Shown here: positions 1,214-51,296 of the stretch, piece by piece | Position numbering within the stretch: position 1 is the first letter of the stretch | Layout of the letters: every line of letters begins with the position of its first letter | Assembly: GCA_022846035.1 (NCBI GenBank) | Contig: AP025580.1 | Location: 868,001-932,000, forward strand | Direction: 5' to 3' | DNA length: 64,000 nucleotides | Source: Christensenellaceae bacterium | GTDB taxonomy: Bacteria; Bacillota; Clostridia; Christensenellales; Christensenellaceae | The notes under the pieces: generated by a model | What the model saw: the letters and a program-made list of their open reading frames with translations, nothing else | Told to the model about the DNA's origin: nothing | Database searches by the model: none | Position numbers and translations under genes: made by a program

Positions 1214-2329
1214 TTGAAAACACAAGCTGCAGAGACAACTAATTTTAAATACAGGGCGTTGCGCGACTGGCTGGTCGAAAATATCGACAAAGGCCGGTTT
1301 CAATACGGCGACAAACTGCCATCAGAGAACATGCTGTGCAGTAAGTTTTCAGTCAGCAGGCAGACGGTGCGCAAGGCGCTGGACGAGCTGGAGGATGTAG
1401 GCGCGATCGAACGCCGCAAAGGCAGCGGTTCGTATGTCAAAAAGCAGATGCTGAAACCGAAAAATAACATGGTCGGCGTTTGTATGAGCTTTCTTGACAA
1501 CTATATCTTTCCGGAGGTCCTGTCGGGGATCGAGGGCGTGCTGACGGAGGCGGGCTATGGCATAGACCTTGGCTTCGGGCATAACCGTGTGGAAAATGAA
1601 GCGCGGTTTTTAGAACGTATGATCGATTCCAACGTGGCGGGGCTCATTGTGGAGGGCATTAAATCCGCTTTGCCAAATCCGAACATCAAATATTACAAGG
1701 CGCTCACGGCAAACAAGGTGCCGATCGTATTTGTCAACAACTATTATCCTGATTTTCCGTGCACCTGCGTGCTGATGGAGGACGAGAAGTGGACATACGA
1801 CATCACCAATCTGCTGATCGCCGCCGGACATAAAAAAATAGCCGGATATTTCAAGTTTGACGATTTGCAGGGACATTGGCGTTACGCCGGTTATATCCGC
1901 GCGATGATGGACGCGGGACTTGAGGTGGACGAGAACTGTATCGGCTGGTATGATTCATCCAATACGGCGCATACGCCGCAGAAGATGGATATGCTGGAGG
2001 AGAACCTTGTATCGTCGATCGACGAATGCACCGCTCTTGTATGTTACAATGATTTTGTGGCCAAAAGGCTGATAGGTAAGCTGGATAAAAAAGGCAGGAA
2101 AGTGCCGGACGATATTTCGATCGTCGGCTTTGATAATTCGGTGGACGCGAAGATCAACGGGAACGACTTGACGTCCGTCAACCATCCCAAGGAAAAAGTG
2201 GGGATCGAAGCGGCGCAAAGGCTGCTGCACCTGATCAAAAATCCGGAGGAAATCAAGGAAGAGCGCGTGTGCTGCTATATGCCCTCCTTTATCCGCGAAA
2301 GAAGCTCTATCAAAAAAATATCGGAGTAA
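1214..2329 (+). CDS. araR: GntR/LacI hybrid sugar-responsive repressor, AraR-like
   Basis: A 371-residue regulator with the AraR architecture: an N-terminal GntR winged helix (about residues 10-75, with [20 protein letters not shown]) joined to a LacI-type periplasmic-binding-fold sensor domain (about residues 85-365). AraR of Bacillus represses arabinose genes and is released by L-arabinose. The start is TTG at 1214, with GAGGA 7 bp upstream. It ends 19 bp before araB and so is probably co-transcribed with araBDA. The same architecture and many identical segments recur in the regulator at 16127-17224. No palindromic operator could be assigned with confidence in the 73-bp gap upstream. Arabinose as effector is inferred from position. 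Confidence 0.85.
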
Positions 2330-2348
2330 TGTAAAAGGAGTCAAGGAA

Positions 2349-4019
2349 ATGGCGAAATATTCTATCGGTATCGATTATGGCACGCTGTCAGGGCGCGCGC
2401 TGCTTGTGGACGTCCGTACGGGCGAGGAAATCGCTACAAGCGTGTATGATTATCCGCATAAGGTAATGGACGAGACGCTTCCCAGCGGGAAAAGGCTGGG
2501 CGTGGATTTCGCCCTAGAGCACCCGCAGGACTATTTGGATGTGATCGAAAAGACGATACCGGCGGTGATCCGCGAAAGCGGCGTTTCGCCGGATGATATT
2601 ATCGGCGTGGGCGTGGACTTTACGGCCTGCACGGTGATGCCGGTCAAGGCGGACGGAACGCCCGTCTGCTTTCTTCCGGAATTTAGGGACAATCCGCACG
2701 CATACGTCAAGCTGTGGAAGCACCACGCGGCGCAGGATAAGGCAAACAAGCTGAATGAAACAGCGGCCGCGCGCGGGGAAAAATGGCTGGCGCGCTATGG
2801 AAACAAAATATCCTCGGAATGGCTGGTGCCGAAAATCTGGCAGATTCTTACCGACGCGCCAGAGGTATACGAGGAAATGGACCGCTTCATAGAAGCGGCG
2901 GACTGGATCGTGTGGCAGCTTACCGGTAAGGAAACGCGCAACTCGTGCTGCGCCGGATACAAGGCGATCTGGCATAAGCAGGACGGCTATCCCTCCAAAG
3001 AGTTTTTCGCGGCCCTCGACCCGAGGCTTGAAAACGTGGTGGAAGAAAAGCTGAGTGAGGAGATATTGCCGTTGGGCAGCCGCGCGGGAGGAATCACGCC
3101 GGAAATGGCGGCAAAGACAGGTCTTGCCGCAGGTACGCCCGTTGCGGTGGGGAACGTGGACGCGCATGTATGCGTGCCTGCGGTAGGCATCGACGGCCCG
3201 GGCAAAATGCTCGCGATCATGGGCACCTCGACATGCCACATCCTGATGTGCGAAAAGGAATGCAGCGTGCCGGGGATCTGCGGTTATGTAGAGGACGGCG
3301 TGATGCCGGGGCTCGTCGGCTATGAAGCGGGGCAGTCGTGCGTGGGAGACCATTTCGCGTGGCTGGTGAATAACTGCGTGCCGCCACGGTATTTTGAAGA
3401 GGCAAAGGCGCAGGGCATGGATATTCATGTATACCTGCAGAAAAAGGCGAGTGAGCAAAAGCCGGGCGAAAGCGGCCTTTTGGCGCTCGATTGGTGGAAC
3501 GGAAACCGCAGCGTACTGGTGGATGTGGACCTGACGGGCATGATGCTCGGGATGACGCTTACCACCAGGCCGGAAGAGATGTACCGCGCGCTTGTGGAAG
3601 CGACGGCATACGGAACGCGAAAAATCATTGAGAATTTTGAAGAGAACGGCGTACCGGTCGACGAGTTTTATGCGTCCGGCGGGATCGCGGAAAAGAGCGC
3701 GTTTGCCATGCAGATTTATGCGGACATCATCCAAAAGCCGATCAAGATTTCGGGCAGCGCGCAAGGTCCGGCGCTGGGAGCGGCGATTTTTGGCGCGGTT
3801 GCGGCAGGAAAGGAAAACGGCGGGTACGACAGCGTGTACGATGCGGCCCGCGTGATGGGAAAACTAAAGAATATCACGTATTTGCCCAATGAAGAAAATG
3901 CAAAGGTGTATGATAAATTGTATGCGGAATACAGCACGCTGCACGATTATTTTGGTACGGGCGGCAACGACGTGATGAAACGCTTAAAGGAAATCAAGAA
4001 AGGCGTTCAGAATGCTTGA
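2349..4019 (+). CDS. araB: L-ribulokinase
   Basis: A 556-residue FGGY-family carbohydrate kinase that phosphorylates L-ribulose to L-ribulose-5-phosphate in the cytoplasm. Seen: the N-terminal ATPase-fold strand [26 protein letters not shown] near residue 95, [12 protein letters not shown] near residue 265, and a C-terminal lobe with [14 protein letters not shown]. Length and sequence match bacterial AraB rather than xylulokinase. The ATG at 2349 has AAAAGGAG upstream. The 3' end overlaps araD by 8 bp, which points to translational coupling. Gene order regulator-araB-araD-araA supports the assignment strongly. Confidence 0.95.
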
Positions 4020-4710
4020 GCAATTAAAACAGGAAGTATATGAAGCGAACATGCTCCTTCCGAAATACGGGCTGATCACGTTTACATGGGGAAACGTGTC
4101 CGGTATCGACCGCGAAAAGGGACTCTTTGTCATCAAACCGTCCGGCGTGGAATATGAAAAGCTGCGTCCGGAAGATATGGTGGTAGTGGACCTTGAGGGT
4201 AAGGTAGCGGAGGGAGATTTAAATCCGTCTTCGGATACGGATACGCATCTCGTGTTATACAGACATTTCAAAAATATCGGCGGCATTACGCACACGCACT
4301 CGCGCTGGGCGACCGCGTGGGCTCAGACAGGCAGGGGCCTGCCGGCTTATGGAACGACGCATGCGGACTACCTGTACGGCGAGGTTCCGTGTACGCGCGC
4401 GCTGACCACGGAAGAGATCAGGGGCGAGTATGAATGGAACACGGGCGAAGTGATCGTGGAAACCTTTGAAAAGCTGAATCCCGACCTGATGAACGCGGTG
4501 CTTGTGAGAAACCACGGGCCGTTCGTATGGGCGGAAAACGCGGCGAAATCCGTGGAAAAGGCGGTCGTGCTCGACGAAGTGGCGATGATGGCGTTTGTAG
4601 GCGAAGCGGCGACGGGCGGCGCGATGAAAGCGATGCCGCAGGAACTCCTGGATAAGCATTATCTGCGCAAGCATGGAAAGGACGCTTATTACGGACAGAA
4701 ACAGGAGTAA
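4012..4710 (+). CDS. araD: L-ribulose-5-phosphate 4-epimerase
   Basis: A 232-residue class II aldolase/adducin-family epimerase that interconverts L-ribulose-5-phosphate and D-xylulose-5-phosphate, the exit of the arabinose pathway. Seen: WGNVSGID, the PSSDTDTH segment with the active-site Asp typical of AraD, the zinc-binding HTHSRWAT, the third histidine in RNHGPF, and the C-terminal [10 protein letters not shown] that carries the His and Tyr used in AraD catalysis. It overlaps araB by 8 bp and is followed within 4 bp by araA. All expected catalytic residues are present, unlike in the related gene at 12048. Confidence 0.95.
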
Positions 4711-4714
4711 AATT

Positions 4715-6199
4715 ATGAAAGCATTCGGGCAATATGAAATATGGTTTATTACGGGAAGTCAGCACCTCTATGGGGACGAAACGCTGCGGCAGGCGGGCGA
4801 ACACGCCAAAGAAATAGCCGCTTTCCTGGATTCGTCGGACGATATTCCTCTCAAGGTTGTCTATAAAGAGCTGGTCAAAACGCAAGACGAGATATACGAT
4901 ACGATCAAGGAAGCGAACTATGACGACAACTGCGTCGGTATCATCACATGGATGCATACTTTCTCGCCGTCCAAAATGTGGATCAAGGGATTGGGTATTT
5001 TAAACAAACCCATGCTTCATCTGCATACGCAGTATAACCGAACGATCCCCTTAAATGAGATCGATATGGATTTCATGAACCTAAACCAGAGCGCGCACGG
5101 CGACCGTGAGCATGGTTTTATTGCGGCGCGCATGCGTATCGCGCGCAAGGTCGTGGTCGGATATTTTAAGGACTCTTCGGTCACGGCGGAAATCGGCGCG
5201 TGGGCGCGCAGCGCGGTGGGGATCGCGGAGGGCTTTCAGCTCAATGTGGTGCGTTTTGGCGACAATATGCGCGACGTAGCCGTTACGGAAGGCGACAAGG
5301 TCGAGACGCAGCTGCGGCTTGGCTGGTCGGTCAATACGCATGGCGTGGGCGATTTGGTAGCGGTGATGGAGCAGGTCACGGATGGGGAAGTCGATGCGCT
5401 TTTTCGTGAGTGCAGCGAAAAATACACGATGCCGGACACGAACCTCGAAGCGGTGCGTTACCAGCTTAGGATCGAGGCCGCGCTGCGCAGGTTTTTAAAG
5501 GAGGGCCGTTTCGGCGCTTTTACGACGAATTTCCAGGACCTGTGGGGACTTAAGCAGCTTCCGGGACTCGCGTGCCAAAGGCTGATGGAAAGCGGCTACG
5601 GCTTTGGTGGGGAAGGCGACTGGAAAGTCTCCGCGCTGTTGCGGATCATGAAGCGGATGAGCCTGGGCATGGACGGCGGCACGGCGTTCATGGAGGATTA
5701 TACCTATCATTTCGAGGAAGGCAACGAGCTCATTTTAGGCGCGCATATGCTGGAGGTGGATCCGAGTATCGCACAGGGCGAGGTGCGTATCGATACCTAT
5801 CCGTTGGGTATCGGCGACCGCGAAGCGCCGGCAAGGATGATCTTCGAATCCGCCGCCGGAAAAGCGATTACCGCATCGCTCGTCGATATGGGCGGCAGAA
5901 TGCGGCTGATCGTGGCCGACGTCGAGTGCGTGAAGCCGATCGGAAAGATGCCGAATCTGCCGGTTGCAAGTACGATGTGGAAGCCGTTGCCGGATTTGCG
6001 TACGTCCGCAAAGGCATGGATACTCGCGGGCGGCGCGCACCATTCGGTACTCAGTTACGCGCTCAACGCGCAGCACATGCGCGATTATGCGGAAATGGCG
6101 GGCATTGAATTTGTCCACATCGGCAAGGACATCGATATAAATGATTTTAAACGGGATCTCGCGCTTTCGGACATGCTGTGGCAAATGAAACTGAAGTAG
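4715..6199 (+). CDS. araA: L-arabinose isomerase
   Basis: A 494-residue isomerase that converts L-arabinose to L-ribulose with Mn. The sequence is typical from the N-terminal FGQYEIWFITGSQHLYG through MHTFSPSKMWI and LHLHTQYN to the C-terminal HHSVLSYAL. The start is the ATG at 4715: it begins the conserved region and has AGGAG 7 bp upstream. An in-frame start at 4673 lies inside araD and is not needed. It is the last gene of the araR-araBDA run and is closed by a perfect hairpin terminator at 6211-6240. Confidence 0.96.
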   Translation: MKAFGQYEIWFITGSQHLYGDETLRQAGEHAKEIAAFLDSSDDIPLKVVYKELVKTQDEIYDTIKEANYDDNCVGIITWMHTFSPSKMWIKGLGILNKPMLHLHTQYNRTIPLNEIDMDFMNLNQSAHGDREHGFIAARMRIARKVVVGYFKDSSVTAEIGAWARSAVGIAEGFQLNVVRFGDNMRDVAVTEGDKVETQLRLGWSVNTHGVGDLVAVMEQVTDGEVDALFRECSEKYTMPDTNLEAVRYQLRIEAALRRFLKEGRFGAFTTNFQDLWGLKQLPGLACQRLMESGYGFGGEGDWKVSALLRIMKRMSLGMDGGTAFMEDYTYHFEEGNELILGAHMLEVDPSIAQGEVRIDTYPLGIGDREAPARMIFESAAGKAITASLVDMGGRMRLIVADVECVKPIGKMPNLPVASTMWKPLPDLRTSAKAWILAGGAHHSVLSYALNAQHMRDYAEMAGIEFVHIGKDIDINDFKRDLALSDMLWQMKLK

Positions 6200-7222: not shown

Positions 7223-8077
7223 TTATTCGTCTCCAAATTTCAGTACGGCCGGATAATGGTTTTTCCGGTCTTCCTCGGGAGGCAGGGTCATATAATCGCC
7301 GAACTGCAGCGTGAGGTGGGGATGGGGATCGCGCGGCATACTGATCGTCGTATCTTCGAAAGGCATTTCACGGAGCGGGAAAAGATCGGATTTTACAAAA
7401 TAAATTTTTTCGGGTTCCGCGCCCGAAAAATCCGTCACATAGGTATCCTCAACGTCCTCATACATGCGGGCCGCCTTTAAGTAACGCCGGTATAAGGATT
7501 TTTTGGAAATACGGAACAGCTTTAATATACCGTGCACCGTATGCGCGGCTGCGGACGCAAGAGAGCGTTTGGCGCCGGTCAAAGTGTCCGGAAGCTTAAC
7601 CTCTCCATAGTCGCGCATGACGCACATACGCGCCCAAAACCATGCTTTTTTGATCTGGCGGGCACGTTTTTCCTGATCTGCGGCCAGCACGTCGAAAGGA
7701 AAGATGTCGAGGAAAATTCCCGACGTATAAGTCCGGTTGGTATCCGTTGCCTCCAGGAATACGGTTCCTTTTTTAGATAACTTGGCAAAGGGAAGAACAT
7801 AGCCGTCCGTATTTTCAATGGTAAGCAGGTCGTATTTACCGCCAAGCTCATCCGGCGCGACCTCAAGGAAGCGCTCATAATCCTTGCGCAGCATACACAC
7901 GTCGATGTCGTCGTCCCAGGGAATGAAACCCTGATGGCGGATCGCGCCGATAGCGGTGCCGCCGAACGCGAAATAAGGAATATCGTATTTCGCGCAGATT
8001 ACCTTGAAATCCTTGAGAATTCCCAAAATCACATCCTGGACCCGCTTTAAGGTCTGCGGATCGTATCCGTTTGCCAT
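7223..8077 (-). CDS. LicD-family phosphotransferase
   Basis: A 284-residue LicD/fukutin-type nucleotidyltransferase-fold protein. Known members transfer phosphocholine or related groups to teichoic acids or surface glycans. Seen: FGGTAIGAIRHQGFIPWDDD near residue 40, with the following IDV completing the metal-binding Asp cluster, and a hydrophobic GIFLDIFPFD near residue 120. It is the first gene of a two-gene minus operon with the GT8 enzyme, which suggests decoration of a cell-surface polysaccharide. The transferred group cannot be told from sequence. Confidence 0.87.
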   Translation of the reverse strand: MANGYDPQTLKRVQDVILGILKDFKVICAKYDIPYFAFGGTAIGAIRHQGFIPWDDDIDVCMLRKDYERFLEVAPDELGGKYDLLTIENTDGYVLPFAKLSKKGTVFLEATDTNRTYTSGIFLDIFPFDVLAADQEKRARQIKKAWFWARMCVMRDYGEVKLPDTLTGAKRSLASAAAHTVHGILKLFRISKKSLYRRYLKAARMYEDVEDTYVTDFSGAEPEKIYFVKSDLFPLREMPFEDTTISMPRDPHPHLTLQFGDYMTLPPEEDRKNHYPAVLKFGDE

Positions 8078-8153
8078 AATAACAACCCCAATCTTTTTGT
8101 TGCAGAACGCTTCTATTATATGCTATTTATACATTGAATTCAAGGCGGCGGAA

Positions 8154-8190
8154 ACATAAAAACCCCTTTCCGAGAAAGGGGTTTTTATGT
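8154..8190. terminator. Terminator after the glycyl radical enzyme gene
   Basis: ACATAAAAACCCCTTTC (8154-8170), loop CGA, then GAAAGGGGTTTTTATGT (8174-8190): a perfect 17-bp stem whose arms hold A/T runs, so it can act in both directions. It lies just past the stop of the minus-strand glycyl radical enzyme at 8203. Confidence 0.85.
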
Positions 8191-8202
8191 GATAGTTTGT
8201 TT

Positions 8203-10686
8203 CTATAAAACATGCTCGGTCCTTGCGATAATATCATTTTGCAGGTCGCGGTCAAGCGGCGCGAAGAGCGCGCTGTAGCCTGCCACGCGGACCATCAGGT
8301 CCTTATACTTCTGCGGCTCTTTTTGCGCCTCTTTCAGTATATCCGCGTTGACTATATTAAACTGGATGTGCATTCCTTTCAGATCGCCGAGGAAAGTGCG
8401 TACAAGCGATGTAAACTTTTGCCGTCCCGCTTGTGTATCTACAGACGCGGGGCTTAACTTCAGATTAAGCAGCGCGCCGCCTGATACGAGCACGGTAGGC
8501 AGCTTGCTGACCGACTTTAAGGAGGACGTGGGCCCGTGCGTGTCCGTGCCGTGCATGGGAGCGGTGGTGTCCGCGAGAGGCTCTCCCGCGACACGCCCGT
8601 CAGGCGTCGCGCCTACCATCGCCCCAAACGGTACGTTGGCGGAAATGGTGCTGGTGGACGGCTGCCACATGGCGCCGATAGGGCCGCGGCCATAGCGGGT
8701 CGTCTTGTATTTTACGATTTCTTCGCAGATGAAGCGGAAATATTCGACAGTCAGCTCGTCCACGTAATCGTCGTCATTGCCAAATTTAGGGGCGCTTACA
8801 AGGATTTGCTGGATCTCAGCGCCGGTAGGCGAGGTTTCCATATCCCTAAAATCCGTATGCAGGGCATGCATAACCTGCGCGGCCGTCAGCGTTTTGTCCT
8901 CGAAAATGACCTTTTTGATGGCGGCGAGGCAGTTGCCCACGTTGGCGGTGCCGATGAATTCCGGACCGGCATAATCGTAATGCATGCCGCCTTCTTTCAG
9001 GCCGCGCCCACGGCCGATACAATCCTCGATAAGCATGGAAACGAGCGGATCGCCGATATACTGCTCGGTGCATTTATCGATGATGTTGTCCCAGATGACC
9101 TGCTCGCGGATATACCATGCGCTGAATTGCTTGATCGCCTCAAATACCTCGTCAAAGGTTTTGAACGTTGTCAGGTCGCCGTTGCCGGCGTGGGGGCAGA
9201 TCCCCGTCCTCGGATCGACGCCGTTATTCAACGCGACCTCGACGATCTTGCCCAAATTGATCAGGCCGGAACCGTTGGGGCGGTGTCCGCATTTGCCTTC
9301 GCATACGGCTTCCACACAGCCGACTACGGAATATTCCGTCGCGTCTTCCACGGACATGCCACGGTTGACAAGCGCCGGAATATAGATTTCGTCGCTGTAA
9401 AACGCGGGTTGTCCGCCGCCCAGGCGGATGCAATCAAGGCACGCCTGGATAAACTTATTGGAAACGCGGTCGTGGTAACGCGCGGACACGGAGGGCGTGT
9501 GCAGGCGGATAGCGGCCTGTGTTTCCAGCACAAGGTAGGAAAGCTCGTTGGTGGCGTCGTGGCCGTTTTTGTCCTGGCCGCCAATGGTGATGTTCTGGAA
9601 AAGCTGATAACCGGAAAACGATTTCTGGTTGTCAAAGGTAAAAATCTTGTTCAATTGGAACAACTTCAAAAATAAACAGCTCAAAAGCTCCACCGCGTCG
9701 TCTGCGGATTCCAGTTCGCCGGATGCAAGGTCGTTCTTATAAAAGGAATACAGATTGGTATCCATACGGCCGAGCGAATAGGAATGCCCGTTGTTTTCGA
9801 TCTGGATGACCATATTGATGAACCAGTACGCCTGCAGCGCCTCATGGAAAGTGCGCGCGGGATATTCCGGCACGCGGTTGCAGATCTCGGAAATCTTGTA
9901 AAGCTCCGCCTTACGCTGCGGGGCGTTTTCTTTTTCCGCCATCTCTTTTGCGAGCGCGGCGTAGCGGTGCGCAAAGGCGGTGATGGCGTCGCACAGGATG
10001 ACGCAGGATTGCAAAAACGGCAGCTGCGTCATATCGTCCGGCACGGATAGGTCGAGCGAATCGATTTTACAGAGGGCTTGGTTTTTAAAGGAAATCAGGC
10101 CCTCGTAAGCGACGCGCTTTAAGTCTACCGTCAGGTGGCCGTCCGCGCCGTTCATCAGCCAATAGGAATCGACCGCGCCGATGGCGCCGGTATCGCGAAT
10201 ATCGTCCGTAAGCAGCTTCTCGCAATGCTCGGCATGCGTTTTTCCTTTCCAGAAAGGGGCTAGTTCGCGTATGTTTTTTTCGTGTTCCTCGCTGATGATA
10301 AAGCGGTCGCCCTGGCGCTGGTCGGGACGCATGGGCTTGCCGTCAAGCTCGTCGATGATCCAATTAATGGAAAATTCGGGAAAGACGGGCGCGCTGCGGG
10401 GCGTGGACGCCTGGTTGCCGACCAGAAGTTCGCCGTCCAAAATAAAAATACTCATTTCTTCCAGCACTTTTTTGAGCGCCTTGGCGCGCAGGATATAAAT
10501 ATTTTCCCCCTCGAATTCCTGGTACGCCTTGGTAACGGCTACTGCGCGCTGGGAACAAATGGTAGGGGCGGAAGCGAGCAAAAGGTTACGCAGGTCTTCG
10601 ATTCTCTTGCTGCGGTAAACAGTCTTGCCGAGGATCGACGCATTGGTGTCCTTATATCGTTTCGCAGTTTCGTCGACATATTTCAT
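8203..10686 (-). CDS. Glycyl radical enzyme of unassigned substrate (PFL-like)
   Basis: An 827-residue glycyl radical enzyme, the oxygen-sensitive family of pyruvate formate-lyase, diol and glycerol dehydratases, choline lyase, hydroxyproline dehydratase and others. Seen: the thiyl-radical Cys457 and the general-base-type Glu459 in VVGCVEAVCEGKCGH, and the C-terminal glycyl radical loop RVAGYSA with Gly803. The Cys loop differs from GCVEP of glycerol, diol and choline enzymes and from the CC of true PFL, and has extra Cys at 462 and 466. The ATG at 10686 has AGGAG 9 bp upstream; an in-frame ATG 75 bp earlier lacks support. It diverges from its activase at 11087 and sits with pentulose-phosphate genes, so a sugar-derived substrate is likely. 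The reaction is unknown. Confidence 0.92.
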   Translation of the reverse strand: MKYVDETAKRYKDTNASILGKTVYRSKRIEDLRNLLLASAPTICSQRAVAVTKAYQEFEGENIYILRAKALKKVLEEMSIFILDGELLVGNQASTPRSAPVFPEFSINWIIDELDGKPMRPDQRQGDRFIISEEHEKNIRELAPFWKGKTHAEHCEKLLTDDIRDTGAIGAVDSYWLMNGADGHLTVDLKRVAYEGLISFKNQALCKIDSLDLSVPDDMTQLPFLQSCVILCDAITAFAHRYAALAKEMAEKENAPQRKAELYKISEICNRVPEYPARTFHEALQAYWFINMVIQIENNGHSYSLGRMDTNLYSFYKNDLASGELESADDAVELLSCLFLKLFQLNKIFTFDNQKSFSGYQLFQNITIGGQDKNGHDATNELSYLVLETQAAIRLHTPSVSARYHDRVSNKFIQACLDCIRLGGGQPAFYSDEIYIPALVNRGMSVEDATEYSVVGCVEAVCEGKCGHRPNGSGLINLGKIVEVALNNGVDPRTGICPHAGNGDLTTFKTFDEVFEAIKQFSAWYIREQVIWDNIIDKCTEQYIGDPLVSMLIEDCIGRGRGLKEGGMHYDYAGPEFIGTANVGNCLAAIKKVIFEDKTLTAAQVMHALHTDFRDMETSPTGAEIQQILVSAPKFGNDDDYVDELTVEYFRFICEEIVKYKTTRYGRGPIGAMWQPSTSTISANVPFGAMVGATPDGRVAGEPLADTTAPMHGTDTHGPTSSLKSVSKLPTVLVSGGALLNLKLSPASVDTQAGRQKFTSLVRTFLGDLKGMHIQFNIVNADILKEAQKEPQKYKDLMVRVAGYSALFAPLDRDLQNDIIARTEHVL

Positions 10687-10846
10687 GACAAAATTCTCCT
10701 TTTCTGAAAAATAGCATTTATGAATCGCCCGGCCAAATCCGGCGGTATTGAAAGTTTGCATGTGGGAGCACTAGGCGCCCTCTTGTGTTGATTATAGGTG
10801 CAAAGCGGCGGGTTGTAAACGGAGAAAAGTCTGTTTTAAGCCTTTT

Positions 10847-10920
10847 TATAACAACTTTCTGCCTGTTTGGGCGGAATTGATAACAACCTTTTTGACATAT
10901 GTTTTCAAAGTTGTTATACC
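10847..10920. promoter_or_regulatory. Divergent promoter region with three ATAACAAC operator-like sites
   Basis: The 400-bp gap 10687-11086 separates the glycyl radical enzyme (minus) from the activase operon (plus). TATAACAACTTT at 10847-10858 is the exact reverse complement of AAAGTTGTTATA at 10907-10918, start to start 60 bp apart; a third, near-identical GATAACAACCTT lies at 10879-10890. A sigma-A type promoter for the plus operon, TTGACA (10892-10897), 17 bp, TATACC (10915-10920), has its -10 box inside the 10907 site, a good position for repression. The SorC-type regulator at 15111 or the AraR-like one at 16127 is the likely binder. The rest of the gap shows nothing clear. Confidence 0.6.
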
Positions 10921-11086
10921 CGTGAAATATGTTGTATTCGAATCGGAATTTGCTCTTGAGTTTCTGTTTTGAGTACTCTAACATATGATTTGACAAGTGC
11001 CACAAACTTTGAAATCCACACTATCATTTTTACACGGCGCCCGAAACGATATACCCCAGATATTTTCAGAAAACAGGAGAAACAGA

Positions 11087-12004
11087 ATGGAGAGAACGGG
11101 AAAAGTATTTAATATAGAAAAATTCCATATCCATGACGGCGAGGGAATCCGCACGGCCGTTTTCCTGAAAGGATGCCATCTGCGGTGTCCGTGGTGCAGC
11201 AATCCGGAATCCCAGAAAACGGGCAACGAAATCGTAGTGTTCGATAACCTGTGCACCGCCTGCCTGCGCTGCGAGAACCTGTGCCCGCAAAAGGCGATAT
11301 ACCACATTGAAAATAAAGTACGCACCAACGCCGCGCTCTGTAATTTCTGCGGTAAATGCGTAGAAATGTGCCCTGCGTCCGCGCGCCAGATCTATGGCGA
11401 AGATATGACGGTGGCAGAAGTCATGCGCGAGGTCATAAAAGATGAAATCTATTACGCGCGTTCGGGCGGCGGCGTAACGGTCACCGGCGGGGAGCCGCTT
11501 TTGCAGGCGGAATTTGTGCGGGAGCTTGTCGCGGCATGTAGGAGCGAATACCTGAGCGTAGCGGTAGAAACATGCGGCGCCGTGAGCTGGGATAAGATGT
11601 GGATGGGGCTGGAAAACGCAGACGAAATCCTGTTGGACGTCAAGACCACGGACCCGCAGAAGACAGGGTTCTTCATGCCGGACGGAAACGGCGATTATAT
11701 CGATATTTTAAGAAGCAATATCCGCAGATTAAGGCAGAAAGATAAAAACGTGATTTTCAGGTGCCCGATCATCCCGGGATTCAATGATACGAAATCTCAT
11801 GTGATGTCTGTCGTCATTTGGGCGAAAGAATTTGGCGTACAGCGTATCGACCTGTTGCCTTTCCACCAGTTTGGCAAGCATAAGCACCGCGCGCTGGGCC
11901 TTGACTATGTAATGGAAGATAAGAAGCAATTGCAAAACGAAGATATGGAAAATTTGATATCCCTGATCGAACGCGCCGACCTTACATGTATGGTCGGCGG
12001 CTGA
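11087..12004 (+). CDS. Glycyl radical enzyme activating enzyme (radical SAM)
   Basis: A 305-residue radical SAM activase that abstracts hydrogen from the glycyl radical site of its partner. Seen: GCHLRCPWC with the CxxxCxxC that binds the radical SAM cluster (about residues 37-43), then two inserted [4Fe-4S] ferredoxin motifs, CTACLRCENLCP and CNFCGKCVEMCP, and the GGEPLLQ glycine-rich SAM motif. The double ferredoxin insert is the form found with dehydratase-type glycyl radical enzymes and absent from PFL activase. The ATG at 11087 has CAGGAGA upstream. It is the first gene of the plus operon and diverges from the enzyme it should activate. Confidence 0.94.
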   Translation: MERTGKVFNIEKFHIHDGEGIRTAVFLKGCHLRCPWCSNPESQKTGNEIVVFDNLCTACLRCENLCPQKAIYHIENKVRTNAALCNFCGKCVEMCPASARQIYGEDMTVAEVMREVIKDEIYYARSGGGVTVTGGEPLLQAEFVRELVAACRSEYLSVAVETCGAVSWDKMWMGLENADEILLDVKTTDPQKTGFFMPDGNGDYIDILRSNIRRLRQKDKNVIFRCPIIPGFNDTKSHVMSVVIWAKEFGVQRIDLLPFHQFGKHKHRALGLDYVMEDKKQLQNEDMENLISLIERADLTCMVGG

Positions 12005-12047
12005 ACACGATACCAAAATTCATTTTAAATAAACGGAGGATAAAACA

Positions 12048-12683
12048 ATGTATGAGGAAGACAAAAAGGCGGTCATAGCGGCGGCGCTGGAAATGAAAGA
12101 AAACAGGCTGATCACGCTTTCAGGCGGCAATGTGAGTGTCAGAAAAGAAAATGGCGACATCATCGTCACGCCGTCTGGCATGAATTATGTGGGCATGGTG
12201 CCGGACGACCTGATCGTTTACAACAAGGAGGGCGAGATCATCGAGGGCACGCGCAAGCCGTCGGTGGATACGGTCGCCCTGCAATATATTTATGAGCATA
12301 TGCCGGAAGTGAACGCGATCATCCACACGCACCAGCCCTACGCGACGGCGGTAGGCCTAATCAGCGACAAGCTGCCCGCCTGCTGCACCACGCTTTCCAA
12401 CGTGGCGCTGGGGGAAGTGTATGTCGCGCCGTACAGCACGCCGGGCAGCCTTGAGATGGGGATACTGACTGTGGACTATTCCAAAGGCAAACGCGCCGTC
12501 ATCCTGCGCCATCACGGCGTAGTCACCATTGGCGGAAACCTGAAAGAGGCGCTCTATGCGGCGGTATATACGGAAGACGTTGCGCGCAGCTACCTGGCTG
12601 CCAAGGCGGCGGGTGATCCGGCGGTCATGACGGAAGAAGAAGACCGGCTCGCGGTGGAAATGTTCAGCAGGTACGGACAATAA
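12048..12683 (+). CDS. Class II aldolase/adducin-family sugar-phosphate aldolase or epimerase
   Basis: A 211-residue zinc-dependent class II aldolase-fold protein. Seen: LSGGNVSVR, the zinc ligands in HTHQPYAT, and LRHHGV with the third His. The acid position reads KPSVDT, with Asp as in AraD (PSSDT at 4012) where fuculose-phosphate aldolase has Glu. However the protein lacks the C-terminal His-Tyr segment of AraD and simply ends MFSRYGQ. It could therefore act as an L-ribulose-5-phosphate 4-epimerase (the UlaF/SgbE role) or as an aldolase. It has GGAGG upstream and sits between the activase and the 3-epimerase. Activity uncertain, family certain. Confidence 0.85.
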   Translation: MYEEDKKAVIAAALEMKENRLITLSGGNVSVRKENGDIIVTPSGMNYVGMVPDDLIVYNKEGEIIEGTRKPSVDTVALQYIYEHMPEVNAIIHTHQPYATAVGLISDKLPACCTTLSNVALGEVYVAPYSTPGSLEMGILTVDYSKGKRAVILRHHGVVTIGGNLKEALYAAVYTEDVARSYLAAKAAGDPAVMTEEEDRLAVEMFSRYGQ

Positions 12684-12693
12684 GGGGAACGGC

Positions 12694-13551
12694 ATGAGCT
12701 TAAAAGACTGTAAGGTAGGGCTTTACGAAAAAGCCCTGCCCAAACGCCTCGGATGGAAACAGAAAATAAGAGAGGCAAAAGCGGCCGGATACGATTTTAT
12801 CGAGATCAGTATCGACGAAACGGATGAAAAGATGGCGCGGGTCCGGCCGGACAGCCCGCAAGGAATGGAAATCAGGGAAGCGTTGTTGGAAGAGGATTTC
12901 CCCTTGCTAACAATGTGCCTGAGCGGCAACCGGCGTTTTCCGGTCGGCAGCCTGGACGACGATACGCGCAATACGGGACTGACCCTGATACGCGAGGCGG
13001 TGGATTTTGCCGTTGCGGCGGGCGTGCGTATTGTGCAGCTCGCGGGCTACGACGAATATTACGGCCCGCGAAGTAAGGAAACGGAGCGGCGCTTTTTGGA
13101 CGCGCTGCGCGGCGCGACGGAATACGCGGCGCAGCGCGCGGTGACGCTGGCGATTGAGAATGTAGACACCGATTTTATGAATACGCTCAGCAAAATCAAG
13201 GCCTATGTCGACAGGGTGAACTCTCCGTGGCTTAAAATATACGCGGACATTGCGAACCTCACCGCCTGCGGCGTGAGCACGCGGGATTTATATGAGGACA
13301 TCGGCTGCGCATATGCCGATACGATCGCCTGGCATGTGAAAGACGGGAAATTAAACGTCATTCGTGATACGCCGTACGGTGCGGGGATTGTGGATTTCGA
13401 CACATTCTTTGCGTTCCTCAAAGAAAAAGGATACGCCGGATTATTCGTCATGGAAATGTGGTCGGACCAGACGGAAGAGTCCGTCCGGTATGTGCGGACG
13501 GCGCGGCAATTTTTAGAAGAGAAAATCGAGACGGCATACGGGAAACGATAG
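12694..13551 (+). CDS. L-ribulose-5-phosphate (L-xylulose-5-phosphate) 3-epimerase, UlaE/SgbU type
   Basis: A 285-residue TIM-barrel sugar-phosphate epimerase. It matches the UlaE/SgbU family closely, with VGLYEKALP at the N terminus, FIEISIDETDEK near residue 35, MCLSGNRRFPVGS near residue 72, IVQLAGYDEYY near residue 113 and a C-terminal VMEMWSDQ. In Escherichia coli these enzymes turn L-xylulose-5-phosphate into L-ribulose-5-phosphate in ascorbate and L-xylulose breakdown. It starts 10 bp after the aldolase/epimerase gene and is followed by an L-xylulokinase-like gene, so the assignment agrees with context. Its product could also enter the AraD step encoded in this window. Confidence 0.9.
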   Translation: MSLKDCKVGLYEKALPKRLGWKQKIREAKAAGYDFIEISIDETDEKMARVRPDSPQGMEIREALLEEDFPLLTMCLSGNRRFPVGSLDDDTRNTGLTLIREAVDFAVAAGVRIVQLAGYDEYYGPRSKETERRFLDALRGATEYAAQRAVTLAIENVDTDFMNTLSKIKAYVDRVNSPWLKIYADIANLTACGVSTRDLYEDIGCAYADTIAWHVKDGKLNVIRDTPYGAGIVDFDTFFAFLKEKGYAGLFVMEMWSDQTEESVRYVRTARQFLEEKIETAYGKR

Positions 13552-13571
13552 GAAGAAAGGCGGAAGAGGAT

Positions 13572-15080
13572 ATGGCGGGAAAATATTACATCGGACTGGA
13601 TAACGGCGGCAGCGTATCCAAGGCGGGGCTGTTTGACAGCGCGGGAAACGAACGCGCGGTGGCGACGGCGATCGTGCCGCAGATATTGCCGCAGGCCGGC
13701 TATGTGGAGCGTGATACAAACCTGCTGTATCAGGCAAACGCGCGGTGTATCCGTGAGGTCATCGGGAAAAGCGGCGTAGATCCGCGGGAAATCGGCGGCG
13801 TTTCGGTAACGGGGCACGGCAACGGGCTATACCTGATCGGCAAGGACGGCAAGCCGTCTTATAACGGTATTATCTCAACGGATATGCGCGCTGCGGATTT
13901 GGTGGAAGCATGGATGGCCGACGGAACGTTTGATAAAATCCTGCCTAAAACAAAGCAATCGTTATGGGCGGGTCAGATCGTTCCGCTGCTGAAATGGTTT
14001 TCGGTAAACAGGCCGGAGGTCATAGAGCGGTCGCGATACGCGTTTAGCTGCAGCGACGTGATCCGTTATTTTCTGACGGGCGAAGCTTGGGGCGAGATTT
14101 CCAACATGTCGTCCATCAGCGCCATGGATCTTGAGAAAGGCGAGTATTCGCGGGAAGTGCTCACGGCCCTGGGCGCGGAAGACTGCATGCGGCTGCTGCC
14201 GCCCCTGCGGCGTTCGACGGACGTTTGCGGCAGGATCACGGAGCAGGCGGCGCGGGAGACAGGCCTTAAGCCGGGAACGATCGTCGCGGGAGGATTGGTC
14301 GACTTTACCGCCTGCCCGATTGCCACGGGTATCGTCGACGAAACGGCGCTCAGTATTGTCGGCGGGACATGGGCGATCACCTGCTATGTGGATAAAAGGC
14401 CGGTTGAGGACAAGGATTTATTTATGTCTTCCATCTATACGATCGACGGATATTATAATATAATGGAAGGTAGCATGACGTCCGCCAGCAACCTGGAATG
14501 GTTCATCCAGAAAATACTCAAGGATGAAAATAAAAGCAGCAAGGAATATTACGAGCTGTGCAACGAGCTGGTGGATTCCAAGCGGCCGGAAGATTGCGAC
14601 GTGGTATTTTTGCCGTATTTATACGGAACGAACGCGAACCCCAAGGCCAAGGCGTGCTTTATGGGCCTTACGTGTATGGATGATAAGGCGAGCATGCTGC
14701 GCGCTATTTATGAGGGCGTGGCTTTTTCCACCTGTTACCACGTGGAAAAGCTGATGGGCTACAAGAAAGACGGCGTAAAGGTTGCGCGTATATCGGGCGG
14801 CCCGTCTAACTCCAGGGTATGGGTACAGATGTTCGCGGATGTGCTGGATATGCCCATCGAGGTTTGCAAGGCGGGAGAGCTGGGGACGCTGGGGGCGGCG
14901 ATGTGCGCGGCGGTCGCGGACGAGCAGTTCGCGGATATGAAACAGGCGGCGCAGGCGTGCTGCCACGCCGGCTATACCTGTGAACCCAAACCCGCGAACG
15001 TGGAAATTTATGCCCGCAAATATAAAGAATTCAAAAAACTGATCGATACGATGGACAGCTATTGGTCTGCGTGCGGTTGA
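13572..15080 (+). CDS. FGGY sugar kinase, L-xylulokinase (LyxK)-like
   Basis: A 502-residue FGGY-family kinase. It resembles E. coli LyxK over its length: YIGLDNGGSVSKAGLFD at the N terminus, VSVTGHGNGLYLIGKDGKP near residue 85, SLWAGQIVPLLKW near residue 138, and IVGGTWAITCYV near residue 260. LyxK phosphorylates L-xylulose and also 3-keto-L-gulonate. The ATG at 13572 begins the conserved ATPase strand; upstream in-frame sequence overlaps the preceding gene and is not conserved. With the adjacent 3-epimerase this predicts L-xylulose or a near relative as an intermediate. The substrate is inferred, the kinase family is certain. Confidence 0.9.
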   Translation: MAGKYYIGLDNGGSVSKAGLFDSAGNERAVATAIVPQILPQAGYVERDTNLLYQANARCIREVIGKSGVDPREIGGVSVTGHGNGLYLIGKDGKPSYNGIISTDMRAADLVEAWMADGTFDKILPKTKQSLWAGQIVPLLKWFSVNRPEVIERSRYAFSCSDVIRYFLTGEAWGEISNMSSISAMDLEKGEYSREVLTALGAEDCMRLLPPLRRSTDVCGRITEQAARETGLKPGTIVAGGLVDFTACPIATGIVDETALSIVGGTWAITCYVDKRPVEDKDLFMSSIYTIDGYYNIMEGSMTSASNLEWFIQKILKDENKSSKEYYELCNELVDSKRPEDCDVVFLPYLYGTNANPKAKACFMGLTCMDDKASMLRAIYEGVAFSTCYHVEKLMGYKKDGVKVARISGGPSNSRVWVQMFADVLDMPIEVCKAGELGTLGAAMCAAVADEQFADMKQAAQACCHAGYTCEPKPANVEIYARKYKEFKKLIDTMDSYWSACG

Positions 15081-15110
15081 CGCGGGAGCAATAGGGCAGG
15101 GAGAACATAA

Positions 15111-16091
15111 GTGGACGGTAAGAACGACATCCAGATCATGGTGCAGTGCGCCAAAATGTATTATACGGAAAAGATGACGCAGGCGGAAATCGCTAAAAAG
15201 CTGGGGATTTCGCGTTCCGGCGTGTCGATGATGCTTTCGGAAGCGATGGAGAGCGGGATCATTGAAATCAATATCAAGGACCCATACGCCAACAACGATT
15301 CGCTTTCGGGCATCTTTAAGGACCGCTTTTACCTGGACGACTGCCGCGTCATACCGACCAACGTGACCAGCGAGGAAATGCTCATCCGCATTGTTTCCTC
15401 GCAGGGCGGGCTGCTCGCGTCCGAGATACTCAAAAGTCATTCCGCCCTCGGTATCGCCTGGGGACGGATGTGCTATGAATTTATGCAATCCTTTCCGATC
15501 AGCAAGGACATCTACGATGTAAACGTGGTACCGCTTTTAGGCGGCTCTAACCGTGTGGGCATGGAATACCAGCTCAACGAAACGGTGCGTATGTTCGCGG
15601 AAAAGCTGCATGGTACGCCGTCGTTTATCTATGCGCCCGCAATCGTAGAGACGATCGCGGACCGCGCGCTTTACATGCAGAGCGTGTATATGCAGTCTAT
15701 CGTGGAAAAATGGGCGAATATTGATTTTGCCGTGGTATCGGCAGGCGCGCCGCCGGATTATTACGAAAATAATATGCAAGTTCCGCTGGACCGCATGATC
15801 GATATGATTAACGAGAACTACGGGAAGCCGGTAGGCGATATTTGCGCTTTCCGTATCAATATCAAGGGCGAATTCGTCAACAACGATTATAACAGCCGTA
15901 TCATCGGCATCGGCGAGGAATACCTGAAAAAGGCGGGTAAGGTAATGGGTATTATCGCCGGAGAATACAGGGCGCTTTCCGCCATCGGCGTACTCAATAC
16001 CGGATTGCTTAATTATCTGGTGATCGACGAGAGGACCGCGCGGCGCGTACTGGAAATTTTAGACAGAAAACTCATTCACTGTTTGCAGTAA
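15111..16091 (+). CDS. SorC/DeoR-family sugar-binding transcription regulator
   Basis: A 326-residue SorC-type regulator. The N-terminal helix-turn-helix is MTQAEIAKKLGISRSGVSMM (about residues 24-43) and the rest is the SorC sugar-phosphate-binding domain. The start is GTG at 15111 with GGGAGAA upstream. It is the last gene of the activase operon and is therefore the first candidate to bind the ATAACAAC sites at 10847-10918 and to respond to a phosphorylated pentulose. The binding and the effector are inference. Confidence 0.88.
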   Translation: MDGKNDIQIMVQCAKMYYTEKMTQAEIAKKLGISRSGVSMMLSEAMESGIIEINIKDPYANNDSLSGIFKDRFYLDDCRVIPTNVTSEEMLIRIVSSQGGLLASEILKSHSALGIAWGRMCYEFMQSFPISKDIYDVNVVPLLGGSNRVGMEYQLNETVRMFAEKLHGTPSFIYAPAIVETIADRALYMQSVYMQSIVEKWANIDFAVVSAGAPPDYYENNMQVPLDRMIDMINENYGKPVGDICAFRINIKGEFVNNDYNSRIIGIGEEYLKKAGKVMGIIAGEYRALSAIGVLNTGLLNYLVIDERTARRVLEILDRKLIHCLQ

Positions 16092-16126: not shown

Positions 16127-17224
16127 ATGGACGACAGCAGTAAAAATTTCAATTTTAAGTATATTGTCCTCAAGCAATGGATCGTGGATAATATCAAAAA
16201 CAAAACGTTCCGGCAAGGGGATAAATTACCGTCCGAGAATTTGTTGTGCCGGAAATTCGGGATCAGCAGGCAGACGGTAAGAAACGCGATGGCGCAATTA
16301 AGCGAGGAGGGCGTGGTTAAAAAGGTGCGCGGAAGCGGGATGTACGTCAACAAAACATTCGCCGCCGCTACGTCCAAAACAGTTGGTATCCTGATCAGCT
16401 ATTTAAACGAATATATATTCAAGCATATTTTCCAGGAGATCGAAACGGTATTAAAGCTCGAGGGATACGAAATCGACCTTTGCATTTCCGAAAACAGGAT
16501 CGAGCAGGAACGCGGTTTTCTGGACCGTATGTATCATTCGGATGTCGCGGGGCTGATCATCGAGGGAACGCGCTCCGCGCTTCCCAATCCGAATATCGAA
16601 TATTACCGTAAGCTGGAAGAAAAGGAAGTTCCTTTCCTGTTTATCCATAATTATTACAGCGGCGTGAAATGCCCGAGTATTCTGATGGACGACATTGGCG
16701 CGTCCAAAAAAATGACGCAAATGCTCATTGAAGCGGGGCATACCGATATTGCGGGAATTTTCAAGGGCGACGATTTGCAGGGGCACAGGCGTTACCTGGG
16801 ATATGTGCAGGCGCTTGGTGAAGCGGGCATTCCCGTGCGCGAGGAACTGATCGGCTGGTTCTATTCCAATTATGATAACAATATCCTGCTGGAAATCAGT
16901 ATCAAGGCCATTCTCGACACGCTCGATTATTATACGGCGATGATCTCGTATAACGACCTGATCGCGCTGGAGATCAACAGGTTTTACGTGCAAAACGGAA
17001 TCAGTATCCCGAGGGATGTTTCGATGGTCAGCTTCGACGACGGCGTAGCGTCGGGCAATCTGGGGATTATTTCAGCCAAACACCCCAAAAAGCTGCTGGG
17101 AATCGAGGCGGCAATGCGCATATTGCGCATGATACGCGAGGGCAGGGACGCGATTCCGCCCGTGCCGTACGTAATTAATACGGAGCTTGCGCTGCGGGAT
17201 TCCATCAAAAAAATTGCCAGGTAA
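16127..17224 (+). CDS. Second AraR-like GntR/LacI hybrid regulator
   Basis: A 365-residue paralogue of the regulator at 1214-2329, with a GntR winged helix ([20 protein letters not shown], about residues 26-45) and a LacI-type sensor domain. Shared signatures include ALPNPNI followed by a Tyr-Tyr pair, DDLQGH and SYNDLIA-like loops. The ATG at 16127 follows the SorC-type gene by 35 bp; GGAGG lies about 13 bp upstream, a loose spacing. Because the two AraR-like genes bracket the arabinose and radical-enzyme loci, they may respond to different pentoses. Target unknown. Confidence 0.85.
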   Translation: MDDSSKNFNFKYIVLKQWIVDNIKNKTFRQGDKLPSENLLCRKFGISRQTVRNAMAQLSEEGVVKKVRGSGMYVNKTFAAATSKTVGILISYLNEYIFKHIFQEIETVLKLEGYEIDLCISENRIEQERGFLDRMYHSDVAGLIIEGTRSALPNPNIEYYRKLEEKEVPFLFIHNYYSGVKCPSILMDDIGASKKMTQMLIEAGHTDIAGIFKGDDLQGHRRYLGYVQALGEAGIPVREELIGWFYSNYDNNILLEISIKAILDTLDYYTAMISYNDLIALEINRFYVQNGISIPRDVSMVSFDDGVASGNLGIISAKHPKKLLGIEAAMRILRMIREGRDAIPPVPYVINTELALRDSIKKIAR

Positions 17225-46333: not shown

Positions 46334-47572
46334 TCAGCGTTTGCCATACAGGAGTGTTGTTTCAAACATTGCTTCAATGTTTTCGGTCTTTGCATCGTCG
46401 ATCATGGTACCACTGTCCATAATGTAGCCGCCACCCGGTGCGCAGGTGTCAATGAGCCATTTACAATAATCGACGACCTCCTGCCTGCTGCCATAGCTTA
46501 AGGTCACGGCGGGAATGTTGCCCATAATACAGGAATGGCCGCCCAGTACTTTCTTGGCCTGTTCCATATCCGTATATTCGAAAGAAAAGATTGTCTTGCC
46601 CGGCGTGATTTCTGTCAGGTACTCGAGCCGCGTATTATAGGCGCCTTCCACATAAACGACGGGCGTTAATCCGGCGTCCGCTACGGCGTTAATATATTTG
46701 CGCAGGGATGGCCAATAGAATGTTTTGAATTGTTCATCGGACATGAATTCATCCACGCCCTTATGCAGCCAGTACCATACGAAAGGCGTTTCCTTGCCGC
46801 TGCAGCCTTTGATGGTATCCTCGATCGCGAAATCCGTTACCACATCTATGAGTTCCAAAAGCTCCTGCGGATGGTCGAACATATCCATGAGGATGGGCAC
46901 GGTACCGCGCAAAGAATCCCCGATCATATCAAAGGGCGCATACGCGAAGCCCGCATAAATAAGCGGGATACCGAACTTGTTTTTGAGCTTCTGTCCGTAC
47001 TCGCCGAGATAGGCGAACCATTCATTGAGTATTTTGCCCGTTTCCACCATTGCCTCCAGGGTGTGGATAACCTGCGGATCGGCAAAATTCAGCAGGGTAC
47101 CGATATGCCCGAACCACATGGCGTTGCGGAAATCAAGCTTGGAAAGGCCAGGAAAATTCGCGAAGCTGCGCGGCATCCATTTGTTCATCATGAATTTGGT
47201 CATGTCGCGGATGGCCTCGGGATATTCGTCGGCGGTCATGTATTCGCCCTCGGCGTATTGGTACATGGCGTTGGGATCGTCTATGTCATGGCCCGGCCAA
47301 CGGTACCAGGTAATCCCCGAACGCTCAAGGTACGCGGAAGGATTGAACAGGATCGGGTCCCAGCCGAGGTCGGGCTGGAAATGTTCGTAAAAGATGTCGT
47401 AGGCCGCGCCTGTGTTTTTCCAGTCGTCCATCGCGTCCTGTATGGTGTAACCGGCATAGTAAATGGGAAAGGCCTGGAAAACAGGAACGATCGGGATACG
47501 GTCAGGCTCTTTTACCGCCGCCGCGTCCATAACTCTTTTTAATCGGGCGTTATATTCTTCGTTTGTAGTCAT
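46334..47572 (-). CDS. Uroporphyrinogen decarboxylase-family protein, probable methyltransferase
   Basis: A 412-residue TIM-barrel protein of the URO-D superfamily. It is not a haem-pathway HemE: the family-wide HemE start is missing and the sequence fits the anaerobe group that includes MtaA/CmuA-like methylcobamide transferases. Possible metal ligands are a His-Cys pair in GGHSCIMGNIPAVTL near residue 350 and a Cys in DTCAPGGGYIMDSGTM near residue 388. It has its own extended -10 promoter at 47602-47610 and GGAGGAG before the ATG. No corrinoid protein is encoded nearby. Substrate unknown. Confidence 0.75.
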   Translation of the reverse strand: MTTNEEYNARLKRVMDAAAVKEPDRIPIVPVFQAFPIYYAGYTIQDAMDDWKNTGAAYDIFYEHFQPDLGWDPILFNPSAYLERSGITWYRWPGHDIDDPNAMYQYAEGEYMTADEYPEAIRDMTKFMMNKWMPRSFANFPGLSKLDFRNAMWFGHIGTLLNFADPQVIHTLEAMVETGKILNEWFAYLGEYGQKLKNKFGIPLIYAGFAYAPFDMIGDSLRGTVPILMDMFDHPQELLELIDVVTDFAIEDTIKGCSGKETPFVWYWLHKGVDEFMSDEQFKTFYWPSLRKYINAVADAGLTPVVYVEGAYNTRLEYLTEITPGKTIFSFEYTDMEQAKKVLGGHSCIMGNIPAVTLSYGSRQEVVDYCKWLIDTCAPGGGYIMDSGTMIDDAKTENIEAMFETTLLYGKR

Positions 47573-47601
47573 GAGGAACTCCTCCGGAATTTGATACTTG
47601 T

Positions 47602-47610
47602 ATTATAGCA
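47602..47610 (-). promoter_or_regulatory. Extended -10 element of the URO-D-family gene
   Basis: TGCTATAAT on the minus strand, 30 bp before the ATG. Confidence 0.55.
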
Positions 47611-47611
47611 C

Positions 47612-47652
47612 AAAAGAAAAAGCAGGCATATGAGAAATCATATGCCTGCTTT
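47612..47652 (-). terminator. Terminator of the epimerase-kinase-oxidoreductase operon
   Basis: AAAGCAGGCATATGA (47619-47633), loop GAAA, TCATATGCCTGCTTT (47638-47652): a perfect 15-bp stem, followed on the minus strand by TTCTTTTG. Confidence 0.8.
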
Positions 47653-47663
47653 AATTGCTTTTC

Positions 47664-48818: not shown

Positions 48819-48839
48819 AATATTGATTCCTTTCTGAAT

Positions 48840-49949: not shown

Positions 49950-49958
49950 GTTATGCTC

Positions 49959-50870: not shown

Positions 50871-50960
50871 GTTTAGATCCTCCTTAAAAATATTAGTTTA
50901 TTCAATACTGTAAAAAATTTATTCCAAGGTTTTGCGGTAGGCCTTTGCTTTAGGGCACTC

Positions 50961-50996
50961 TTTGTATGATTTATATGATTTGTATTATTTGTATCA
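50961..50996 (-). repeat. Left array: four 9-bp units containing TTTGTAT
   Basis: TTTGTATGA, TTTATATGA, TTTGTATTA and TTTGTATCA follow each other with an exact 9-bp period. Read on the minus strand they are ATACAAA units, the same motif as the array at 51188-51259 but in inverted orientation. TTGTAT/ATACAA is the half-site type of HutC/TreR-like GntR regulators. Confidence 0.8.
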
Positions 50997-51259: not shown

Positions 51260-51296
51260 GAAATGTCTTTGAAACAACTTTCAGTCAACAGCAAAA

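Follow-up and report, generated by a model that had tools for sequence, protein, structure and literature searches.

A glycyl radical enzyme of an uncharacterised subfamily encoded beside pentulose-phosphate genes in a Christensenellaceae bacterium

Glycyl radical enzymes (GREs) of the eliminase branch abstract hydrogen from a carbinol carbon and expel a neighbouring leaving group. Two of them, YbiW of Escherichia coli and PflD, act in anhydro-sugar chemistry; their Protein Data Bank titles name YbiW with 1,5-anhydroglucitol-6-phosphate (AG6P; 8id7) and PflD with 1,5-anhydromannitol-6-phosphate (8id0). YbiW is reported to form 1-deoxy-fructose 6-phosphate in the same manner, and a 2024 report is said to deal with the products of both enzymes. 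The same GRE eliminase fold occurs in the B12-independent dehydratases that act on glycerol or propanediol (1r8w, a glycerol dehydratase; 9rco, a propanediol dehydratase; and 5i2g). The yia/sgb and ula pathways of E. coli comprise the kinase LyxK, the 3-epimerases SgbU and UlaE, and SgbE and UlaF. In this study, we describe a locus in which a GRE of an uncharacterised subfamily is encoded beside genes of the yia/sgb and ula kind, in a 64,000-nucleotide stretch (the window) at positions 868001-932000 of the single-contig, 2.77-Mb genome of a Christensenellaceae bacterium (G000). The locus is real and is conserved among the few genomes found with it, and the combination of this GRE subfamily with a pentulose-phosphate module represents a variant pathway built on a known type of enzyme. 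In literature listings, no report recognisable as dealing with this GRE-pentulose system was found.

The GRE gene (8203-10686, minus strand) encodes 827 amino acids, with Cys457, Glu459 and Gly803. Its frame is open to 10761, and an 852-residue open reading frame begins 25 codons further upstream; the Met at 10686 was chosen as start because it is preceded by a ribosome-binding site (AAGGAG) and fits the numbering of the three residues. Running divergently on the plus strand are a GRE activase of the radical SAM type with ferredoxin-type clusters (11087-12004, 305 residues, ATG at 11087-11089), a class II aldolase/epimerase (ALD; 12048-12683, 211 residues), a UlaE/SgbU-type L-ribulose/L-xylulose-5-phosphate 3-epimerase (12694-13551, 285 residues), an FGGY kinase of the LyxK branch (13572-15080, 502 residues, start at 13572) and a SorC/DeoR-type sugar-responsive regulator (15111-16091, 326 residues), followed by an AraR-type regulator. 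A preliminary description of this DNA had placed the divergent GRE, its three residues and all five operon genes correctly, and had noted the lack of SgbH; neither SgbH nor UlaD was the best match of any open reading frame in the window.

The C-terminal glycyl radical motif RVAGYS, the active-site Cys and the nearby activase gene place the enzyme in the GRE family. Its Cys is followed by Glu at +2 (GCVEA), the eliminase motif, unlike the Cys-Cys of pyruvate formate-lyase (PFL); Cys-x-Glu is common to GRE decarboxylases as well. The general PFL2-3 model was passed (792.1, cut-off 678.2), and the score fell below every NCBIfam equivalog, the best being HpsG (595.9/1000), then NF007437 (formate C-acetyltransferase, 580.4/1109), HypD (566.3/1100) and CutC (560.2/1050). 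The equivalog cut-offs of HpfG and of indoleacetate and hydroxyphenylacetate decarboxylase were likewise missed. By sequence comparison the window GRE thus belongs to an uncharacterised subfamily outside the NCBIfam equivalogs, in support of the preliminary description; the statement there that the active-site loop matched none of the well-known types was mistaken, since the loop lines up with that of YbiW, GCIETAVGGKWGYR. The host genome contains nine PFL-like GRE matches, and none of the eight scanned against NCBIfam (two as partial frames) reached an equivalog cut-off.

The nearest solved chains found by phmmer were 6xs4, YbiW and 1r8w, with nearly equal scores; identity was 40% to YbiW and 36% to PflD. 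An AlphaFold model (mean predicted local distance difference test score, pLDDT, 85.9; predicted template-modelling score, pTM, 0.88) matched the folds of 6xs4 first and 8id7 second. A tree was computed by quick search without bootstrap from 39 rows chosen to cover the diversity of the family, to which 1r8w and 9rco had been added. In this tree the window GRE falls inside an 11-row clade of its own with support of 100, apart from the 17-row clade of YbiW (99). Both clades lie in a 31-row group which shuts out 1r8w, 9rco and PflD at a Shimodaira-Hasegawa-like approximate likelihood ratio test (SH-aLRT) value of 100; PflD stands on a separate branch. A 95-row tree without 1r8w and 9rco gave a compatible grouping.

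In the active site, window residues Cys457, Glu459, Gly803, His184, His301 and Ser302 align with Cys433, Glu435, Gly763, His164, His281 and Ser282 of glycerol dehydratase, and the Cys/Glu pair, both His and the Ser are common to 1r8w, 9rco and the window enzyme. YbiW shares the Cys-x-Glu motif and has the other three as His165, His282 and Ser283. Asp447 (1r8w numbering), taken here as a mark of the dehydratases, and Trp445 correspond to Gly472 and Arg469 in the window GRE, as in YbiW. A plain glycerol/propanediol dehydratase was ruled out by the tree position and by Gly472 at the Asp447 site; no diol pathway genes were seen in the operon. Among other differences from YbiW, the window GRE lacks Arg330, His334 and Asn414 (YbiW numbering). 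The first two are each kept in 66 of 67 YbiW-type rows and are replaced by Phe/Gln/Thr/Ile and Asn/Ser, respectively, in the window's own clade 1 and the related clade 2, while Asn414, present in 67/67 YbiW-type rows, is Tyr in the window enzyme. Arg at the Arg330 site is also present in 1r8w and PflD.

The partner enzymes resemble those of the yia/sgb and ula pathways in kinase branch and 3-epimerase, and differ in that SgbH is lacking, ALD is only about 30% identical to its counterparts, and a GRE with its activase is added. The kinase is 36% identical to LyxK over 496 residues, versus 20-24% to AraB, XylB and FucK. In a kinase tree it fell on the LyxK branch (100/100), a position which suggests a ketose substrate. 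The epimerase, 40% identical to UlaE, passed TIGR00542 (279.9, cut-off 272.15) and PRK13210 (289.2, cut-off 200) and missed PRK13209 (304, cut-off 317). ALD is 31% identical to FucA, 32% to AraD, 28% to UlaF and 30% to SgbE, and scored 174.5 against PRK06557 (cut-off 251); its best solved relatives are fuculose-phosphate aldolases. It shares with AraD, SgbE and UlaF Asp76 and a C-terminal Tyr (the AraD Tyr229 site, Cys in the G001 relative described below), keeps the zinc histidines of AraD and has Asn for Asp120. At the positions of FucA Glu73 and Tyr113 it has Asp and Thr, as AraD does. These AraD (Asp76, Asp120, Tyr229) and FucA residues are the catalytic ones. ALD may be either a 4-epimerase or an aldolase, its catalytic letters being nearer to AraD than to FucA.

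Of 248 genomes searched within the order, seven had an ALD relative at 60% identity or more. The one in G482 (L206, L211), 64% identical, is surrounded by DeoC-, PduP- and PduL-like genes, named by eye, in what resembles a microcompartment locus. In G005 (L208, C1:124001-144000) a 61% relative stands beside a PflD-like GRE, an activase, an ABC transporter, an FGGY kinase and a SorC regulator. In G435 (L207), a genome that gave no GRE match, ALD accompanies a LyxK-type kinase, another FGGY kinase and proteins assigned by eye to the UroD family.

Conservation of the gene set in relatives, which the preliminary description had named as a check, was confirmed. The window GRE type was found in three genomes (its own, G003 and G001), each time next to the same partners. 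In G003 (L039; GRE 98% identical) the operon is the same as in the window. In G001 (L040) identities are 60% for the GRE, 64% for ALD, 40% for the kinase and 41% for the epimerase, and the order is GRE, activase, kinase, ALD and epimerase in one direction with SorC opposite; retention of the partners in a different order indicates an association beyond chance. Divergence of the G003 operon from the window is uneven: GRE, ALD and SorC are 98-99% identical, the kinase 93% and the epimerase 91%.

In clade 2 (L041, in the host genome itself, and L042, L043, L044 and L050), 5/5 loci combine GRE and activase genes with those of an AraB-like kinase and a 3-epimerase of the Rpe type; AlsABC-like transporter genes are present in four of the five. 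Neighbours were counted in loci of 4.7-22.5 kb, in which misses may be due to cut-off contigs. An FGGY kinase was present in 8/10 loci of the window GRE's clade versus 2/81 others, and a 3-epimerase in 7/10 versus 4/81; an FSA aldolase was present in 0/10 versus 32/81. The window GRE in particular adjoins no FSA aldolase, in contrast to YbiW, and has LyxK- and UlaE-type partners instead. The kinds of kinase and epimerase also correspond. A LyxK-branch kinase accompanies a UlaE-type epimerase in 4/5 cases (window, L039, L040 and L205), none being seen in L207, which is cut by a contig end; an AraB-like kinase accompanies an Rpe-type epimerase in 7/8, the exception being the second kinase of L040; and one XylB-branch kinase, in G823 (L188), has no epimerase match beside it. 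In the kinase tree the clade-2 kinases tested grouped with AraB (100/99), and the G823 kinase, which also passed TIGR01312 (560.1, cut-off 380.25), grouped with XylB (100/99); the L039 and L042 kinases were assigned outside the tree by 93-94% identity.

From this gene set we infer a substrate, a 1-deoxy product and an order of steps. Tentatively, and at a little less than an even chance, we propose that the GRE acts on a polyol or anhydro-sugar as a radical C-O eliminase, yielding a 1-deoxy-pentulose that the kinase and epimerase process. The activase would generate the Gly803 radical, Cys457 would take hydrogen from carbinol carbon C2, and Glu459 would help to expel the C1 oxygen, as water or ring ether, to leave a methyl ketone. 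Since the substrate of a 3-epimerase must carry a ketone at C2 and a hydroxyl at C3, the group expelled would come from C1 and the product would be a 1-deoxy-ketose, probably the L-xylulose form; xylitol, L-arabinitol or an anhydro-pentitol would be its source. The LyxK-type kinase would phosphorylate it at C5, the UlaE-type epimerase would invert C3, and ALD would either invert C4 or split the chain. The new entry step suggested in the preliminary description is retained in part: the GRE probably acts upstream of the pentulose genes, and the dehydration or ring opening named there may apply, but its chemistry would give a 1-deoxy-pentulose and not a pentulose. An ordinary pentulose product would explain the kinase and epimerases, and not the GRE chemistry or the E1 genes described below.

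Several observations weigh against this proposal. The 1-deoxy product is drawn by analogy with that reported for YbiW. The tree lacked CutC, HypD and IslA, and the fork joining the 11-row clade, the YbiW clade and two further rows has support of only 89, too low to fix the closest relative of the 11-row clade. Phe and Ala replace His301 and Ser302 in the G001 GRE, whose partner genes are the same, so that substrates may differ within the clade. Comparison of the window's reading frames found no transporter gene in the operon, and two loci (L045, L046) had neither a kinase nor an epimerase of the kinds described above nearby. Among the seven genomes with ALD, it adjoins a clade-1 GRE in three, the PflD-like GRE in one and no GRE in three; at an E-value threshold of 0.001 the genomes G482 and G435 contain none at all, and the single GRE of G461 lies on a contig other than that of ALD. 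Kinase and ALD thus occur in genomes without the GRE and are independent of it.

One report (PMC11574389) describes many abundant GREs of gut microbes as having unknown function. For one GRE subfamily the window locus offers a named, testable guess, its gene partners fixing the expected stereochemistry of the product. If true, anaerobic bacteria would have an added route for fermenting sugar alcohols or anhydro-sugars via 1-deoxy-sugars, and 1-deoxy-pentulose phosphates, known isoprenoid precursors, would be placed in energy metabolism.

A broader form of the proposal, which we consider doubtful, is a fermentation converging on 1-deoxy-D-xylulose 5-phosphate, in which GREs would form 1-deoxy-pentuloses from pentitols or anhydro-pentitols, XylB-, AraB- or LyxK-type kinases would phosphorylate them, epimerases would act where needed, and an E1-E2-E3 dehydrogenase complex would cleave the methyl ketone to acetyl-CoA and glyceraldehyde 3-phosphate. 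It is suggested by the way kinase and epimerase types change together, as conversion of every stereoisomer to a single form would require; toward the D-xylulose form the epimerases would be none, the Rpe type, or the UlaE type with ALD as 4-epimerase. The nearness of the ALD catalytic letters to AraD raises its probability slightly. On one strand of the G823 contig lie a partial sugar-binding protein, a GRE 48% identical to that of the window, SorC, xylulokinase, activase, E1-alpha, E1-beta and a partial lipoyl protein; no epimerase match was found in the 10.4 kb fetched of this 13.4-kb contig. Two Atribacteria contigs (L090, L053) have a GRE followed by E1-alpha and E1-beta. Without a GRE, G461 (L205) has the run ALD, epimerase, E1-alpha, E1-beta, kinase, SorC, and the host genome (L157, C1:583001-601000) clusters an AraB-like kinase, SorC, an Rpe-type epimerase and E1-alpha, E1-beta, E2 and E3.

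The E1-alpha proteins were nearest to pyruvate dehydrogenase in NCBIfam, below its cut-off (362.3, 350.7 and 373.6 versus 393.85), while E1-beta passed a pyruvate dehydrogenase subfamily (405.3, cut-off 321) and E3 passed lipoamide dehydrogenase. Plasmid relatives of the complexes are annotated as thiamine pyrophosphate (TPP)-dependent or pyruvate dehydrogenase; in gene layout they may resemble acetoin dehydrogenase, a name given by no database match. A pyruvate:ferredoxin-oxidoreductase-type frame of 1177-1201 residues was present in 6/6 genomes checked, which suggests that the E1 complexes need not serve pyruvate. In one study (PMC3424233), 1-deoxy-D-xylulose 5-phosphate rose about 20-fold in vivo in E. 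coli pyruvate dehydrogenase E1 mutants, with no rise in the wild type, an indication that such enzymes can be altered to act on the bond in question.

Across four genomes, 4 of 18 E1-alpha genes (>250 bits) had a GRE no farther than 10 or 12 kb away (expected 1.3 and 1.53; Poisson p 0.043 and 0.07), and five had one no farther than 16 kb away (expected 1.99; p 0.052). Adding G002, G004, G016 and G017 gave 5/25 at 10 and 12 kb (expected 1.56 and 1.83; p 0.021 and 0.039) and 6/25 at 16 kb (expected 2.38; p 0.034). Among 36 other genomes of the class, with at most three GRE candidates scored per genome, 1 of 16 E1-alpha genes had a listed GRE no farther than 10 kb away (that of G823), and E1 matches above 60 bits were found in 3 of 80 named loci (L053, L090 and L061, the last E1-beta only). 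Proximity by itself is therefore weak, and the E1 link rests on the single gene runs.

Other explanations compete with the proposed formation of a 1-deoxy-pentulose upstream of the kinase. The one that survives best, though unlikely, places the GRE downstream: kinase, epimerase and ALD would degrade a deoxy-pentulose or pentulose to dihydroxyacetone phosphate and an aldehyde, and the aldehyde would be reduced to a diol for the GRE to dehydrate, as in fucose and rhamnose pathways. The fuculose-phosphate aldolases among ALD's solved relatives fit this arrangement, as do the aldehyde-dehydrogenase- and PduL-like genes (by eye) around ALD's relative in G482, but genes for a reductase, an aldehyde dehydrogenase or shell proteins were not seen in the window operon, ALD lacks Glu73 and Tyr113 of FucA, and the GRE stands outside the 1r8w/9rco branch without Asp447.

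Decidedly unlikely is the possibility that the kinase acts first, phosphorylating an anhydro-pentitol that the GRE would then open, as YbiW acts on a phosphate. Membership of YbiW's group and the anhydro-hexitol 6-phosphates in the YbiW and PflD structures speak for it, whereas the LyxK branch suggests that the kinase takes a ketose, and replacement of YbiW Arg330 and His334 in clades 1 and 2 is a further, weak objection, Arg being present in glycerol dehydratase too. We also think it improbable that the GRE merely lies beside the pentulose genes and shares no pathway with them; the kinase and ALD do exist without a GRE, but the set is kept in G001 at 60% GRE identity in a new order, and in G005 a PflD-like GRE adjoins the same kind of ALD. 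Decarboxylation of a keto-gulonate-type acid to a pentulose, an entry step raised in the preliminary description and compatible with LyxK and UlaE types where SgbH was not found, is most improbable, the decarboxylase models lying far under their cut-offs (446.9/1100 and 329.7/1150) and the nearest relatives cleaving C-O bonds.

Turning from the proposed radical elimination to its surroundings, the GRE/activase intergenic region contains three inverted repeats, the longest being the imperfect palindrome ATAACAAC...GTTGTTAT (10880-10917; arms 76% complementary), a candidate operator. A putative promoter, TTTACA-17-TATAAT (11/12), precedes the GRE at 10791-10819 on the minus strand, and a 17-pair hairpin, terminator-like on both strands, lies 3' of the gene (8154-8190); both are pattern matches, with 11 promoter sites found versus 10.1 expected and 16 hairpin sites versus 12.9. 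The AraR-type regulator beyond SorC (16127-17224, plus strand, 365 residues, GntR with a LacI-type sensor) is 43% identical, as measured in G003 (L039), to the AraR-like protein whose gene precedes araB. On the side opposite the activase operon, two genes away from the GRE, sequence comparison identified an ara operon (1214-6199, plus strand) with AraR-like (1214-2329), AraB (2349-4019), AraD/UlaF-like (4012-4710; 57% to UlaF) and AraA (to 6199) genes. In the 7699-8908 region of L039, araD is present and is followed by only a short, weak AraA match, so that araA is seemingly not intact. A second sugar island at 46334-61391 of the window contains UroD-family, Gfo/Idh, sugar kinase-like, DeoC-like and ABC sugar transporter genes, named by eye.

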